Of a stretch of DNA of 64,000 bases, positions 39,663 through 46,185 are shown piece after piece. The notes under the pieces were generated by a model that did no database searches, was not told the DNA's origin, and worked only from the letters and a program-made list of their open reading frames with translations. This DNA is from an uncultured Bacteroidia bacterium (lineage in GTDB: Bacteria; Bacteroidota; Bacteroidia; Bacteroidales; Prolixibacteraceae). Position 1 is the stretch's first letter. The number at the start of each line of letters is the position of its first letter. The translations under genes were made by a program, and so were the position numbers. The DNA lies in contig CAIXCY010000240.1 of the NCBI GenBank assembly GCA_903918045.1, forward strand, positions 1 through 64,000, read 5' to 3'.

Positions 39663-40856
39663 ATGGCAGGTACCGAGCTATTCGGAAATGAAGAACGAAA
39701 GGAAGTTATGGATGTACTCGAAACCGGAGTACTATTTAGATATGGTCATGATTCACAACGCAATGGAATCTGGAAGGCCAAAACTTTCGAACAGGAATTC
39801 AGCACCTATCTTGGGGCAAAACACACCCATTTCTGCGCAAGCGGAACAGCTGCAGACTCACTCTCACTGGCATGTTGCGGGATTGGTTATGGAGACGAAG
39901 TAATCGTCCCTCCCTATACCTTTATTGCCCCAATTGAGGCTGTTCTGGTAGCCGGAGCAATTCCGGTGTTTGCAGAGCTGGATGAAACATTATGCTTAAG
40001 TCCGGAAGGGATTGAGAAAGCAATAACACCACGCACCAAAGCAGTTTTAATAATACAGGTTTTTGGATCGATGGGGAGAATGGATGAAATCCTTGCAGTC
40101 TGTGAAAAACATAACCTCATCTTAATCGAAGATGCAGCACCGGCACTGGGAGGTAGTTACAAGGGGAAAATGCTCGGTAATTTCGGAAAAATGTCAGCAT
40201 TCTCATTCGATTATTATAAAATCATCACTGCCGGTGAAGGGGGCGCTATCGCAACAAACGACGACGAACTATACGACCGGGCGCATAAATATTCAGATCA
40301 CGGCCACGATCATCTGGGAAATGCCAGAGGTGCAGAACAACATCCTATTTTAGGCTATAACTTCCGGGGATCCGAACTTGGAGCCGCTGTAGTCCTGGCT
40401 CAGCTTAGGAAGTTACCCTATATGATCGAAAAACAAAGGGCTCATCAGAATGTGCTAAAAAAAGTACTTCAGGAGTTTCCCGAAATCAGGTTGCGTAATG
40501 TCCCTGATGAGGCAGGAGATTCGGCAACATTCCTCTCCTTCTTCCTCCCTAACCCCGAAAAAGCGGTAAAAGTTTTTGATGAATTTCAAAAAGAAGAGCT
40601 CAGTGCCTCTTACTGGTACCGGAATAATTTTCATTACCATCGTCAGTGGGGCCATTTAAAAGAGATGAAATCGATATTTAATCTTCCGGTAATGAAGATG
40701 GCCAACGCGCCTGATTACAGAAACCTGGAAGTTCCTCAATCAGATGAAATCATGCAACGGCTCATGATGACCCAGATCATGGTGACCTGGAGCGAAGAGG
40801 AGTTAAACACACTGGCCTCCAAAATGAGGTCGGCAATAAAAAAAGCACTTAAATAA
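39663..40856 (+). CDS. kdnA: 8-amino-3,8-dideoxy-manno-octulosonate transaminase (DegT/DnrJ/EryC1/StrS)
   Basis: 397 aa; MAGTELFGNEERKEVMDVLETGVLFRYG, PLP region FSFDYYKIITAGEGGAIATND; adjacent to kdnB and kdsA. Confidence 0.88.
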   Translation: MAGTELFGNEERKEVMDVLETGVLFRYGHDSQRNGIWKAKTFEQEFSTYLGAKHTHFCASGTAADSLSLACCGIGYGDEVIVPPYTFIAPIEAVLVAGAIPVFAELDETLCLSPEGIEKAITPRTKAVLIIQVFGSMGRMDEILAVCEKHNLILIEDAAPALGGSYKGKMLGNFGKMSAFSFDYYKIITAGEGGAIATNDDELYDRAHKYSDHGHDHLGNARGAEQHPILGYNFRGSELGAAVVLAQLRKLPYMIEKQRAHQNVLKKVLQEFPEIRLRNVPDEAGDSATFLSFFLPNPEKAVKVFDEFQKEELSASYWYRNNFHYHRQWGHLKEMKSIFNLPVMKMANAPDYRNLEVPQSDEIMQRLMMTQIMVTWSEEELNTLASKMRSAIKKALK

Positions 40857-40863
40857 AAAGCGT

Positions 40864-41940
40864 ATGTTCAGAAATTTGAAGCCAGTCGGCAGGATTTTAT
40901 ATGGTCGGAATAGTTTTGACCAACTCGGAGATGTTTTAGGCGAATTGCGTATCGAAAACGATTCTTATGTACTTTTTCTTGTGGACGAGTATTTCGACGG
41001 AAAGGATTTTCTTAAACGGATTCCTCTTCAACCACAGGATATTCTAAAAATCATCGATGTTACCGATGAACCAAAAACAAAGACCGTTGATGAAATGGTT
41101 GCAGAGATCAAGGCTCTCGGCAAAGGTAACCCTGTGTCTGTGGTTGGTATCGGTGGTGGTATTGTGATGGATTATGGAAAAGCGATCCGTCTGATGTTCA
41201 CTAATGAAGGTTCTTCGGCACTCTACCAGGGACTCGATTTCATTAAAAATAAAGGTGTTCATTGTACGGTTATCCCAACCATTTCGGGAACAGGCGCAGA
41301 GGTATCGATGACCACCGTTTTAACAGGTCCACTGAAAAAACTTGGAATTAAAGGGAATTTCACCGCTGCCGATCAACTGGTTATGGATCCGGAATTGATT
41401 ACCAGTGTTCCGGAACCAATCAGATTCTACACCGCAATGGATTGCTATATTCATAATATTGAAGCACTGAATGGCCACAGAAGATCCGTAATGGGTGACT
41501 CTTTAGGTATTGAATCACTTCGTATTTTCAGAGAAATCTATCTAAGCGAAGACAGCCGTACTCCCGAAAATGAAGAGAAGCTTATGGTCGCCTCTTATCT
41601 TGGGGGATTGTCACTAACCTATTCTGAGGTGGGCGCCTGCCATGCTATGTCTTATGGCCTGGCTACAGTAACAGATATTCATCATGGTGTTGGCAACTGT
41701 ATCGTATTCAATCAGCTGGAAGAATTTTATCCTGAGGCGGTAAAAGAATTCAGGGAAATGATGCGACTTAATAATATTGAAATCCCTCAGGGAGTAGTTG
41801 CCCGCTTAACACCAGAGGCGATCGAAAAGATGATTGATGTCTCCCTCACCCTGGTCTTTATGTGGGCACACGTGTGTGGTCCTGAGTGGGAGAAAATTAT
41901 TACCCGCGATAAACTCCGCGGATTGTACCTGAAAATGTAA
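40864..41940 (+). CDS. kdnB: 3-deoxy-manno-octulosonate 8-oxidase (iron-containing ADH family)
   Basis: 358 aa; VVGIGGGIVMDYGKAIRLMFTNEGSSALYQGLDFIKNKGVHCTVIPTISGTGAEVS; follows kdnA by 7 nt. Confidence 0.88.
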   Translation: MFRNLKPVGRILYGRNSFDQLGDVLGELRIENDSYVLFLVDEYFDGKDFLKRIPLQPQDILKIIDVTDEPKTKTVDEMVAEIKALGKGNPVSVVGIGGGIVMDYGKAIRLMFTNEGSSALYQGLDFIKNKGVHCTVIPTISGTGAEVSMTTVLTGPLKKLGIKGNFTAADQLVMDPELITSVPEPIRFYTAMDCYIHNIEALNGHRRSVMGDSLGIESLRIFREIYLSEDSRTPENEEKLMVASYLGGLSLTYSEVGACHAMSYGLATVTDIHHGVGNCIVFNQLEEFYPEAVKEFREMMRLNNIEIPQGVVARLTPEAIEKMIDVSLTLVFMWAHVCGPEWEKIITRDKLRGLYLKM

Positions 41941-41950
41941 TCTAATTAAA

Positions 41951-42787
41951 ATGACAAAAATAGTTAAAGTTGGAAATATTGAATGCGGAGCGGAGAAGCT
42001 GTTCCTGATTGCAGGACCTTGCGTGGTTGAGGATGAAAAAACAATGATGGATACTGCCGAATTTCTGGTTGAATTATCTCATAAACTCGATCTTCCGTTA
42101 ATCTTTAAATCCTCATTTCAAAAAGACAACCGTAGTTCATCCGATTTTTATTCCGGTCCAGGGATCGAAAAAGGGCTTGAAATACTTCAAAAAATAAAGG
42201 ATCAGTTTAATGTTCCGTTAATTACAGATATTCATTATCCCGATCAGATTGCTGCCGCAGCAGCTGTAGTGGATGTGATTCAGATACCTGCGTACCTGGT
42301 AATGCAGACTACCCTTGTGGTTGAAGCTGCGAAAACAGGGAAAGTTCTTAATCTTAAACATGCTCAGTATCTCTCCCCCGAGAATATGATCAAACCACTT
42401 AAGAAGGCAGAACAAGCCGGAAACTTTGAACTTATGGTTACAGAACGGGGATACGCGTTTGGATATAATGACCTGATCGTTGACCCTCGAAGCTTTTACC
42501 ATCTGCGCCAAACCGGGTACCCTGTGATTTTCGACGTTACTCACTCCATCCGTAAATATGGAATTCCGAGTTCAGATCCTCGTGGCGGTTCAAGGGAGTT
42601 TATCCCAACCTTGGCACGCGCCGGTGTGGCCGCAGGTATTGATGGATTATTCCTTGAGGTTCATCCAGACCCTTCGCGCGCCCTTTGTGATGCAGCAAGC
42701 CAAATGTGTATCGATGATGTTACTGAGTTCCTCAAACCATTGATCGACATTCATAATATTGAAGTAAAATACAGATCTAAAAATTAA
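41951..42787 (+). CDS. kdsA: 3-deoxy-8-phosphooctulonate synthase
   Basis: 278 aa; FLIAGPCVVEDEKTMMDTAEFL, FKSSFQKDNRSSSDFYSGPGIEKGLEIL, FDVTHSIRKYG. Confidence 0.96.
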   Translation: MTKIVKVGNIECGAEKLFLIAGPCVVEDEKTMMDTAEFLVELSHKLDLPLIFKSSFQKDNRSSSDFYSGPGIEKGLEILQKIKDQFNVPLITDIHYPDQIAAAAAVVDVIQIPAYLVMQTTLVVEAAKTGKVLNLKHAQYLSPENMIKPLKKAEQAGNFELMVTERGYAFGYNDLIVDPRSFYHLRQTGYPVIFDVTHSIRKYGIPSSDPRGGSREFIPTLARAGVAAGIDGLFLEVHPDPSRALCDAASQMCIDDVTEFLKPLIDIHNIEVKYRSKN

Positions 42788-42801: not shown

Positions 42802-43827
42802 ATGGAATTTTTTCTTGACTCGGCGAACCTAGCTGAAATTGAAGAAGCCCTGAAACTGGGGATCATTGATGGTGTTACCACTACGCCAACCTTTATGCAC
42901 AAAAATGGGATTACCGACATCGACGGAGCGATCGTCAAATTATCAAAGATGGTCCCTGTTCTGATGATTGAAGCATTAGGCGAAACATCAGAACAGATCG
43001 TTGCTGAAGCTCATCGCTTGCTAAGCCTTGGACTTGACAAGAAAAAGACGGTCTTCAAAATTCCGGTCAATTTCGAAGGGGTAAAGGCATGCAAAAAGCT
43101 CCATGACGAAGGTTTTCTGATCAACCTACACCTTGTTTACAACATTCAGCAGGCTTACATGGCTCTAACAGCCGGAGCCAACTATGTCTGTGTATTGGTA
43201 GGCAGAATGCAGGATCAGGGACATGATGCCTTAGGACTTGTAAAACAAATTGCAGATGTTATTAAAGAATACAAATACGATTGTAAGGTGATGTTTTCCT
43301 CTGTGAGATATCCTGAACATGTCAAAGATGCACTTACACTTGGAGCTCATAATATTACCCTTCCCTGGAGTATCATGAAAAAACTGGCCGATAACCACCT
43401 TACAAAATTAGGTACCGATCAGTTCTTTCAGCATACACGTCTGATGACCGTTCAGGTTAAGAGTGTAATATCCGATTCAAACCCTGTTGTGGATATCGAC
43501 TGTAAAGTTCCCGATGCGCTGATGAAAATGACCGATTCAGGAATGGGTGCAGTATCCGTAGTTTCTAAAGATGGTAAACTTGCCGGTATCTTTACCGACG
43601 GTGACCTTCGTCGTCAATTACGCAAGTTAGGCGATCACATTAATACAGCCCTTGTTGGAGAGTGTATGACCGCAAATCCGATTTCAATCGAAGGGGATTC
43701 CGTTTTGCAGAAAGCTGCGGATATCTTCAACGCCAACCAGGTGGACAATATTATCGTGACCGAAAACGGCCTTCCAATCGGAATGCTCGATATTCAGGAT
43801 ATGGTGAAACTTGATTTGATGAATTAA
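42802..43827 (+). CDS. TalC/FSA-like transaldolase-family domain fused to tandem CBS domains (KdsD-type)
   Basis: N-terminus MEFFLDSANLAEIEEALKLGIIDGVTTTPTF, TVFKIPVNFEG (Schiff-base Lys context), CVLVGRMQDQGHD; C-terminus GAVSVVSKDGKLAGIFTDGDLRRQLRKLGDHINTALVGECMTANPISI resembling KdsD CBS pair. Confidence 0.9.
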   Translation: MEFFLDSANLAEIEEALKLGIIDGVTTTPTFMHKNGITDIDGAIVKLSKMVPVLMIEALGETSEQIVAEAHRLLSLGLDKKKTVFKIPVNFEGVKACKKLHDEGFLINLHLVYNIQQAYMALTAGANYVCVLVGRMQDQGHDALGLVKQIADVIKEYKYDCKVMFSSVRYPEHVKDALTLGAHNITLPWSIMKKLADNHLTKLGTDQFFQHTRLMTVQVKSVISDSNPVVDIDCKVPDALMKMTDSGMGAVSVVSKDGKLAGIFTDGDLRRQLRKLGDHINTALVGECMTANPISIEGDSVLQKAADIFNANQVDNIIVTENGLPIGMLDIQDMVKLDLMN

Positions 43828-43847: not shown

Positions 43848-43877
43848 AGGCGGAGCAGTAATGTTCCGCCTTTTTTG
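43848..43877 (+). terminator. Rho-independent terminator closing the kdn-kds operon
   Basis: AGGCGGA-GCAGTAATGT-TCCGCCTTTTTT. Confidence 0.85.
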
Positions 43878-44544: not shown

Positions 44545-46185
44545 CTAATGTTTCATTATCTCCTCAATAACATTCCCTGTTACAGCTGAAGGGGGAGCAA
44601 TTCCAAGAAATGCAGCGATTGTAGGTACAATATCTGTTGCATCGGTTCGGCGCATCGTGGTTCCTTTTTTAATACCGGCGCCATACCATACCAACGGAAC
44701 CTGGCTGTTTTCGGTATAATCAAGGGGACTGAATTTATCTTTAGGTTGCCAACCATTCTCATATTTAATCAGCACATCGCCAGATCGCTTTATGTGAAAA
44801 TTATTCTGAAAAGGTGCGAGCGCTCCACCCGGAAAATTATTCGCCTCAAGTTCAAGCGCCTCCTTTGCATAGGCAATCCCTTCAAACTGATTTAAAAACA
44901 AAGCCACAGCAGACTGCATCTCATGAATGCTAAGTTTCTTTTTTTCAATCAATTCATGATTCAGGTAAATCTGCTGGTTGGCAAAAAGTTCAATCCAGCT
45001 ACCCTCACCATATTTGATATTCAGGTACGATTTTAACAACGCAATCGAGCTTTCAGGATTAAAAGTGCCGGCAGTCATGTGATAACGCTCTTTCATAAAA
45101 TCAGCAGGATATGAAATACTGGTTAATCCGGTAAGGTAAATCAGGATATCCTCCGTCCCAAAACCACTCTCAATGTATTTCAGCAACTCCGCAATATCCT
45201 TGTCAAGACGCAGGTAAGTATCCTCCATTTCCACAGAGAGAGCCCCAAAAGAGTAGCGTTCATAATCCATCGAGGAGAAGACCACTGTCAGCAAATCAGG
45301 AACCAGATCAATTCCAAGCTGCTCTTTTGGAATCATCTGAAGTGCAAAATCTTTGACCATTGAGTTCCCCATTGGCGTAGTTTTAAGGATCTTAAAACTA
45401 CCGCCCGATTCCTTCTTTAGTTTATTCAGGTCATAGGGAAAGGTTCTGTATTTTCCAAAATATCCCGATTCGTTGGGAGAATCTCCGGAAATGCTCTCGG
45501 AATAGGAATTTTGATCTTTTAAAGTTGTCCAATTCGTTGAAAGGTACTTCTCTGCCAGTCTGTTGCCATTGAAATCAAATGCCCATTGTGGAAATGTTTC
45601 GACATAATAGGAGGAGGAGATCATTTTCCCGGATGTTTCATCGAGCCAGTAGGCGCCATTTGCAGCATGACCGGCAGCCATCACCGCAGCAATGTCATTC
45701 AATGCAACACTAAAAACCCTCGATCTCCCTTTGGTTACAAGTTTCAGCTGATCTCCGAGCGTTGGAGTCATAAGGTTCATTGCCGACCGCTCACCCTCCT
45801 TCGAGTCGGATCCCACAGTGGTGTAAAAATCATCCTTAATGGCATTTACCTCCTTGTTTTTCAAACGGTTGATCCAGTTGTCGCTGATTATGCCATGATG
45901 TGATGGAGAGGTTCCTGTGGAAAGGGTTGCCATATTTACCGATGGCCGCTGTATTAAATTGCCATAATGATGATTGCCACATATAAAACCGGCCCGGTAA
46001 AGCCGTTGAAATCCACCCTCCCCAAATTTATCCCAGAATCGCTCCACATAATCAGGGTTAAAATCCTCAATGACAATCCCCACTACCAATCGGGGAGTAT
46101 TGGCAGAAATTGTGGTGTGTCCTTGCGCAAAGACCAGGAATGGGAGAAATAAGATGGGAAACAGCGTCCAAAACTTTTTAAACAT
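44545..46185 (-). CDS. Alkaline phosphatase family protein (type I phosphodiesterase/nucleotide pyrophosphatase superfamily)
   Basis: 546 aa, signal peptide; VVGIVIEDFNPDYVERFW, TLSTGTSPSHHGIISDNW, DIVPTIAAFLGIAPPSAVTG. Confidence 0.85.
   Translation of the reverse strand: MFKKFWTLFPILFLPFLVFAQGHTTISANTPRLVVGIVIEDFNPDYVERFWDKFGEGGFQRLYRAGFICGNHHYGNLIQRPSVNMATLSTGTSPSHHGIISDNWINRLKNKEVNAIKDDFYTTVGSDSKEGERSAMNLMTPTLGDQLKLVTKGRSRVFSVALNDIAAVMAAGHAANGAYWLDETSGKMISSSYYVETFPQWAFDFNGNRLAEKYLSTNWTTLKDQNSYSESISGDSPNESGYFGKYRTFPYDLNKLKKESGGSFKILKTTPMGNSMVKDFALQMIPKEQLGIDLVPDLLTVVFSSMDYERYSFGALSVEMEDTYLRLDKDIAELLKYIESGFGTEDILIYLTGLTSISYPADFMKERYHMTAGTFNPESSIALLKSYLNIKYGEGSWIELFANQQIYLNHELIEKKKLSIHEMQSAVALFLNQFEGIAYAKEALELEANNFPGGALAPFQNNFHIKRSGDVLIKYENGWQPKDKFSPLDYTENSQVPLVWYGAGIKKGTTMRRTDATDIVPTIAAFLGIAPPSAVTGNVIEEIMKH

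Follow-up and report, generated by a model that had tools for sequence, protein, structure and literature searches.

A transaldolase-type aldolase fused to KdsD-like CBS domains as a probable source of arabinose-5-phosphate in Bacteroidota that lack KdsD

Kdo is a key building block of outer-membrane lipopolysaccharide, and nearly all Gram-negative bacteria need it. The first committed step in its synthesis, formation of D-arabinose-5-phosphate (A5P), is attributed to the SIS-type isomerases KdsD, KpsF and GutQ. In the window (the whole stretch of 64,000 nucleotides analysed here, from an uncultured bacterium of the Prolixibacteraceae), the gene of the A5P-consuming synthase KdsA is followed by a gene that joins a CBS pair of the KdsD kind to an aldolase. 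The question raised by this locus is whether the fusion takes the place of KdsD and, if so, by what chemistry. Our best reading is that it is a non-orthologous, CBS-regulated KdsD replacement, for which the role is well supported and the chemistry is what we infer.

Four genes of the forward strand are separated by gaps of 7, 10 and 14 bp: kdnA (39663..40856), encoding the transaminase for 8-amino-3,8-dideoxy-octulosonate (Kdo8N); kdnB (40864..41940), encoding Kdo 8-oxidase; kdsA (41951..42787), encoding Kdo-8-phosphate synthase; and, as fourth and last, the fusion gene (42802..43827; 341 aa). The best solved relatives of KdnA and KdnB are the Kdo8N enzymes 5k8b (E 2.5e-134) and 5k8c (E 3.9e-107). 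KdsA scores 320 bits with TIGR01362, whose cut-off is 314, and belongs to the fusion-linked KDNRS subtype described below. Gene order, short gaps, and structure and profile matches bear out a previous sequence-only reading, which had placed the fusion fourth in a kdnA-kdnB-kdsA operon. The Shewanella Kdo8N pathway (5k8b, 5k8c) also has kdnA and kdnB; compared with the arrangement that we assume for Shewanella, the window has both genes in a single operon that also includes kdsA and the fusion gene. Downstream of the fusion, a stem-loop followed by a T run (43848..43871, forward strand) resembles a terminator by consensus match only, and terminator-like sites in the region are not above the shuffle count. 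A gene for a PafA-like alkaline phosphatase (492.7 bits, under the cut-off of 650) lies at 44545-46185 on the minus strand.

The aldolase domain of the fusion (residues 1-213; 42802..43440) matches Pfam TAL_FSA (PF00923) over residues 3-203, with E 1.7e-37 and 129.8 bits against a cut-off of 27. TalC transaldolases, represented by 1vpx (E 4e-36), match it more closely than does E. coli FSA (1l6w, E 6e-17). The AlphaFold model of the fusion (mean pLDDT 90.6) lies 1.4-1.9 A from TalC 1vpx, with a Foldseek TM (by target) of 0.90-0.94. The score with the equivalog model fsa_talC_mipB (TIGR00875) is, however, 166.1 bits, below the curated cut-off of 245.95. A CBS pair follows (residues 219-335; 43456..43806), detected by Pfam as two CBS domains (E 1.3e-16) and bearing the FTDGDLRR motif common to KdsD; the NCBIfam models that match it are kpsF, KdsD and GutQ. 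No SIS domain was found in the fusion, and TIGR00393 (KdsD/KpsF) reaches the CBS part only (59.6 bits against 203.7). The architecture first described from the letters of the window, with a TalC/FSA-like N-terminal domain, a KdsD-like CBS pair and no SIS domain, is thus confirmed by Pfam, NCBIfam and structure matches. An assembly artefact was considered and ruled out, since the fusion is found in about 20 independent Prolixibacteraceae-type assemblies at 86-97% identity.

The closest solved CBS pair belongs to an arabinose-5-phosphate isomerase (4o9k, E 7.6e-18), and two other arabinose-5-phosphate isomerases, 3k2v and 3fna, are among the next matches; 4o9k and 3k2v were presumably solved with CMP-Kdo. 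The motif TDGDLRR occurs in the 18 KdsD CBS pairs compared (as TDGDIRR in one), and in the fusions this motif is invariant save at one position. When a tree of CBS pairs was built, those of the fusions formed one group and those of KdsD another; with moderate support (86/67), the two groups are jointly separated from IMPDH and others. Either direction of transfer of the pair between fusion and KdsD agrees with this tree. Compared with KdsD, KpsF and GutQ, which combine SIS and CBS domains, the fusion has a CBS pair with the same motif (FTDGDLRR/ITDGDLRR), a KdsA-adjacent genomic role and a similar length, whereas the place of the catalytic SIS domain is taken by a TIM-barrel aldolase of unrelated fold, which has a catalytic lysine. 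Judging from the homology of the pair, feedback control of the fusion is plausible, and the effector would be a product of the pathway, for example CMP-Kdo or the 8-amino counterpart.

The genome of the window (5.36 Mb, 98.8% complete) was searched for KdsD with TIGR00393, which gave CBS matches only and no SIS-type relative. As far as their sequences can be read, SIS domains occur in this genome only in GlmS, in MurQ, in a 350-residue protein with two such domains and in a GmhA-like protein of 218 residues. A whole-genome search for an SIS-CBS kdsD had been proposed as a check on the fusion, and its negative outcome favours an alternative A5P supply. A separate transaldolase-type gene sits on another contig of this genome.

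Among 119 genomes drawn from the order, KdsD was found in 98 (65 with an SIS-CBS protein above cut-off, 33 with an SIS-only protein) and the fusion in six, from six families; none of the 119 has both. KdsA is present in 104: 95 of these have KdsD, six have the fusion (that is, all the fusion genomes) and three have neither, so that 101 of the 104 have one or the other. Twelve of the 15 KdsA-less genomes also lack both KdsD and the fusion. The exclusion among KdsA-bearing genomes has a Fisher p of 5.5e-8 with kinship ignored. At the level of the phylum, four of 218 genomes with completeness of at least 95% carry the fusion, and all four are KdsD-negative and KdsA-positive; the three besides that of the window are rated 100% complete. 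Fifteen other KdsD-negative genomes of the phylum sample were tested, and 14 lack KdsA; the exception, G140, has it.

A further sample was made of 50 named genomes from the 80 fusion loci described below; it overlaps the order and phylum samples in at least two genomes (G033 = G368, G263 = G369), and the counts are not additive. KdsD is absent from 48 of the 50. KdsA exceeds the cut-off in 48 as well, and in the other two kdsA is cut or broken beside the fusion. Hence, the co-occurrence of fusion and kdsA across Bacteroidetes, which had also been suggested as a check, holds in the order, phylum and named genomes. The two KdsD-positive genomes are those of Prolixibacter denitrificans and of a Sphingobacteriales MAG; both encode a canonical KdsA (365-377 bits) together with a KdsA of the fusion type (335-338 bits).

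The order genomes with KdsA but neither KdsD nor the fusion are G010, G046 and G011, the last one only 61% complete. G010, G046 and, in the phylum, G140 (kdsA loci L150, L151 and L174, respectively) may be incomplete assemblies or have yet another A5P source; they count against the replacement of KdsD by the fusion, because with KdsA but neither KdsD nor fusion they suggest that an A5P source may be missed elsewhere too. The SIS-only, A5P isomerase-like proteins of other Bacteroidales represent another version of the step, and in some genomes their gene lies directly before kdsA (L148:3011-4391, L149:3345-4783). They differ from the fusion in having the isomerase fold and no CBS domains. Among the A5P sources of Bacteroidota, the fusion would stand as the third, beside this SIS-only protein.

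Gene linkage was examined in relatives. A scan of GTDB species detected at least 539 relatives of the fusion, and 80 loci were kept. All but one of the 80 are labelled Bacteroidota or groups within, and carriers include Prolixibacter, Labilibacter, Plebeiobacterium, Thermonema, Cytophagales, Chitinophaga, Crocinitomicaceae and Flavobacteriales, among others. One locus (L116) with a kdsA-fusion-HAD cassette and 59% identity comes from a MAG labelled Deltaproteobacteria, and is either a mislabelled bin or a transfer. In 64 of the 80 loci, a same-strand kdsA lies upstream of the fusion at a distance of no more than 3 kb, and in 50 this distance is 250 bp or less. When only loci with 3 kb on both sides were considered (n = 54), kdsA was found in 43 and kdnA plus kdnB in 34. 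A HAD phosphatase gene lies within 1.5 kb downstream of the fusion in 38/80 loci (examples are L121:715-1413, L012:827-1498 and L013:2534-3232). Tested against the KdsC model, it reached 54.6 bits (cut-off 208), which makes it a distant relative and a possible KdsC. The window lacks this gene, and the KdsC-like gene of the window genome is on contig C152 (L155:1450-1980). In Labilibacter marinus Y11, the fusion gene is present twice at full length (L067:8001-9020 and L079:8001-9020): one copy lies beside kdsA-kdnA-kdnB and the other elsewhere, with a further TAL-like gene nearby. Chance linkage or a local oddity is ruled out by the 80 loci together with the whole-genome exclusion. The operon context emphasized in the sequence-only reading stands, although that reading overlooked two traits of these loci: a co-diverged KdsA and the frequent HAD phosphatase downstream.

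The lack of KdsD, the mutual exclusion, the constant presence of KdsA and the operon linkage strongly support the core idea put forward at the start, an alternative A5P supply for KdsA. We thus consider it likely that the fusion replaces KdsD and supplies A5P to KdsA for Kdo/Kdo8N synthesis in KdsD-less Bacteroidota.

The chemistry was approached by comparing the active sites of 50 fusions and 25 stand-alone enzymes. D6, E57, K86, N108, R135, S167 and R169 are kept in the 50 fusions, and nearly all stand-alone enzymes agree; K86 (codon 43057-43059) is the Schiff-base lysine in the barrel. Conservation of the Asp, the Schiff-base Lys, the Arg and the Ser (D6, K86, R135 and S167), previously read in the window, therefore extends to every fusion compared. 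The replacement of the Asn of TTNPS by Thr, noticed at the same time, is real and equally fixed. Five changes are found in 50/50 fusions: N28T, T110H, F132L, A165F and A166S (in the window, T28 is at 42883, H110 at 43129 and L132 at 43195, forward strand). Further fixed differences are Y113 and Q137, which are F and D, respectively, in stand-alone enzymes. Where FSA/TalC enzymes have the donor contact Asn28 and the water site Gln/Glu59-Thr109-Tyr/Phe131, the 50 fusions have T28, E57, H110 and L132, which leaves agreement at the acidic/amide position alone. Catalysis in E. coli FSA is covalent and uses Lys85, with Asp6 and Asn28 as donor contacts; the catalytic water is held by Gln59-Thr109-Tyr131, and Tyr131 is the main proton shuttle (PMC13259622). 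Because K86 is kept while donor and water residues are replaced, imine chemistry should be retained, and donor recognition and proton transfer should be altered. Since none of N28, T109 and Y131/F132 of FSA/TAL is retained, homology does not allow the activity of FSA to be assumed for the fusion. In short, the fusion shares with TalC-type transaldolases (1vpx, 3r8r) and E. coli FsaA (1l6w) the fold, the lysine, Asp6, E57, Arg135 and Ser167, and differs from them in the five fixed changes, the added CBS pair and the kdsA linkage.

Between two ways of making A5P, we slightly favour 2-epimerisation of ribose-5-phosphate (R5P) over addition of glycolaldehyde to glyceraldehyde-3-phosphate. The reasons are that R5P is abundant and glycolaldehyde is not, and that the invariant new His beside the kept Glu might provide a second acid/base. 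The imine would join Lys86 to C1 of the aldose phosphate. Epimerisation might then proceed by retro-aldol cleavage and re-addition, since R5P would split into the same two pieces, glycolaldehyde and glyceraldehyde-3-phosphate; alternatively, E57 and the newly acquired H110 would act as the acid and base that transfer a proton at C2. Aldolase folds turned epimerase are known, as in AraD, the L-ribulose-5-phosphate 4-epimerase; we know of no precedent, however, for a Lys-imine R5P epimerase. Formation of A5P from ribulose-5-phosphate through a lysine imine was set aside on the reasoning that, after imine formation at C2, the sugar would stay attached to the enzyme as an amine. The F178Y variant of TalB gives R5P as a by-product of A5P (PMC9947464), which indicates that the fold can handle both epimers. 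The complete proposal, in which a transaldolase scaffold would use a lysine imine to interconvert R5P and A5P at C2 as a new route to the Kdo precursor, controlled by a CBS pair of the kind also present in the unrelated KdsD, is offered tentatively.

Also within A5P supply, the fusion might be a plain aldolase that joins glycolaldehyde to glyceraldehyde-3-phosphate, as originally proposed. This is how E. coli FsaA makes A5P, both in vitro and in engineered cells of E. coli (PMC9947464), and the lysine, Asp6 and the phosphate-side Arg and Ser are kept. Besides, N28 is a donor contact in FSA (PMC13259622), and its change suits a donor smaller than dihydroxyacetone. On the other hand, Leu and His stand in for Tyr131, the proton shuttle of FSA, and Thr109, respectively, and the operon has no glycolaldehyde-making gene. 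To our knowledge, folate synthesis is the only common source of glycolaldehyde, and it seems too small for lipopolysaccharide. The reaction is possible for the fusion, even with three FSA residues that serve it replaced, and we take this route as a serious contender that falls short of probable.

Examination of KdsA provided an observation that A5P supply alone does not predict and that counts against it: changes are fixed beside the A5P site. In a tree, the KdsAs of fusion loci form one separate clade (23 rows; support 100/100). All 73 fusion-linked KdsAs have KDNRS, against KANRS or KANRT in 28/28 others (A59D), and R118M, Q201R (in the L7 loop), P203Y and S246C are also fixed. KdsA with KDNRS, M118, R201 and Y203 was seen at L041, L051, L058 and other fusion loci, and the KDNRS subtype also accompanies canonical KdsA in the two genomes with both A5P sources. 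Arg at position 118 and the Gln of the L7 loop are, we assume, contacts of the A5P phosphate in Aquifex KdsA. The swap at 118 and 201 may thus rewire the same phosphate contact, or the aldose may differ.

If the aldose differed, A5P would not be the aldose phosphate that the fusion and its KdsA use, and their product would be a different Kdo-like sugar. The separate clade is in agreement with this possibility, and so is the presence of both KdsA types where both A5P sources occur, which would fit a dedicated synthase for each source. However, joint inheritance of the cassette also accounts for the pairing. In addition, the main substrate contacts of Neisseria KdsA (K50, K55, R58, K133 and R163; PMC6650799) are retained in the window KdsA as K53, K58, R61, K136 and R166, fusion-linked KdsAs exceed the TIGR01362 cut-off, and KdnA and KdnB of the operon strongly match Kdo enzymes. 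A different aldose is therefore rather unlikely. A K137H change in KdsA was considered as loss of the PEP lysine and rejected, since by residue numbering PEP is served by K136, and this lysine is retained.

A conventional transaldolase or fructose-6-phosphate aldolase with incidental CBS domains would have the TalC fold and the lysine observed. This explanation is very improbable, and was rejected because 44/50 fusion genomes have another TAL_FSA protein; furthermore, active-site residues kept in all 25 stand-alone enzymes are altered in the fusion, and the kdsA linkage and the exclusion of KdsD would be left unexplained. Least credible of all is that the fusion senses or removes A5P, as had also been suggested: CBS domains bind ligands and aldolases are reversible, but genomes with KdsA would be left without a known A5P source.

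No published account of the fusion was found in searches on the fusion itself, on KdsD loss in Bacteroidetes and on Kdo8N; most subscription papers were outside these searches, and priority is not established. If replacement of KdsD by the fusion is true, a large part of the Bacteroidota makes A5P with an unrelated fold, and the fusion gene fills a hole in the annotation of their Kdo pathway. Inhibitors of KdsD would then be ineffective on fusion-bearing Bacteroidota. The fusion would, moreover, offer a clear example of a catalytic domain exchanged while the regulatory domain stays, and the transaldolase family would probably gain a new reaction.
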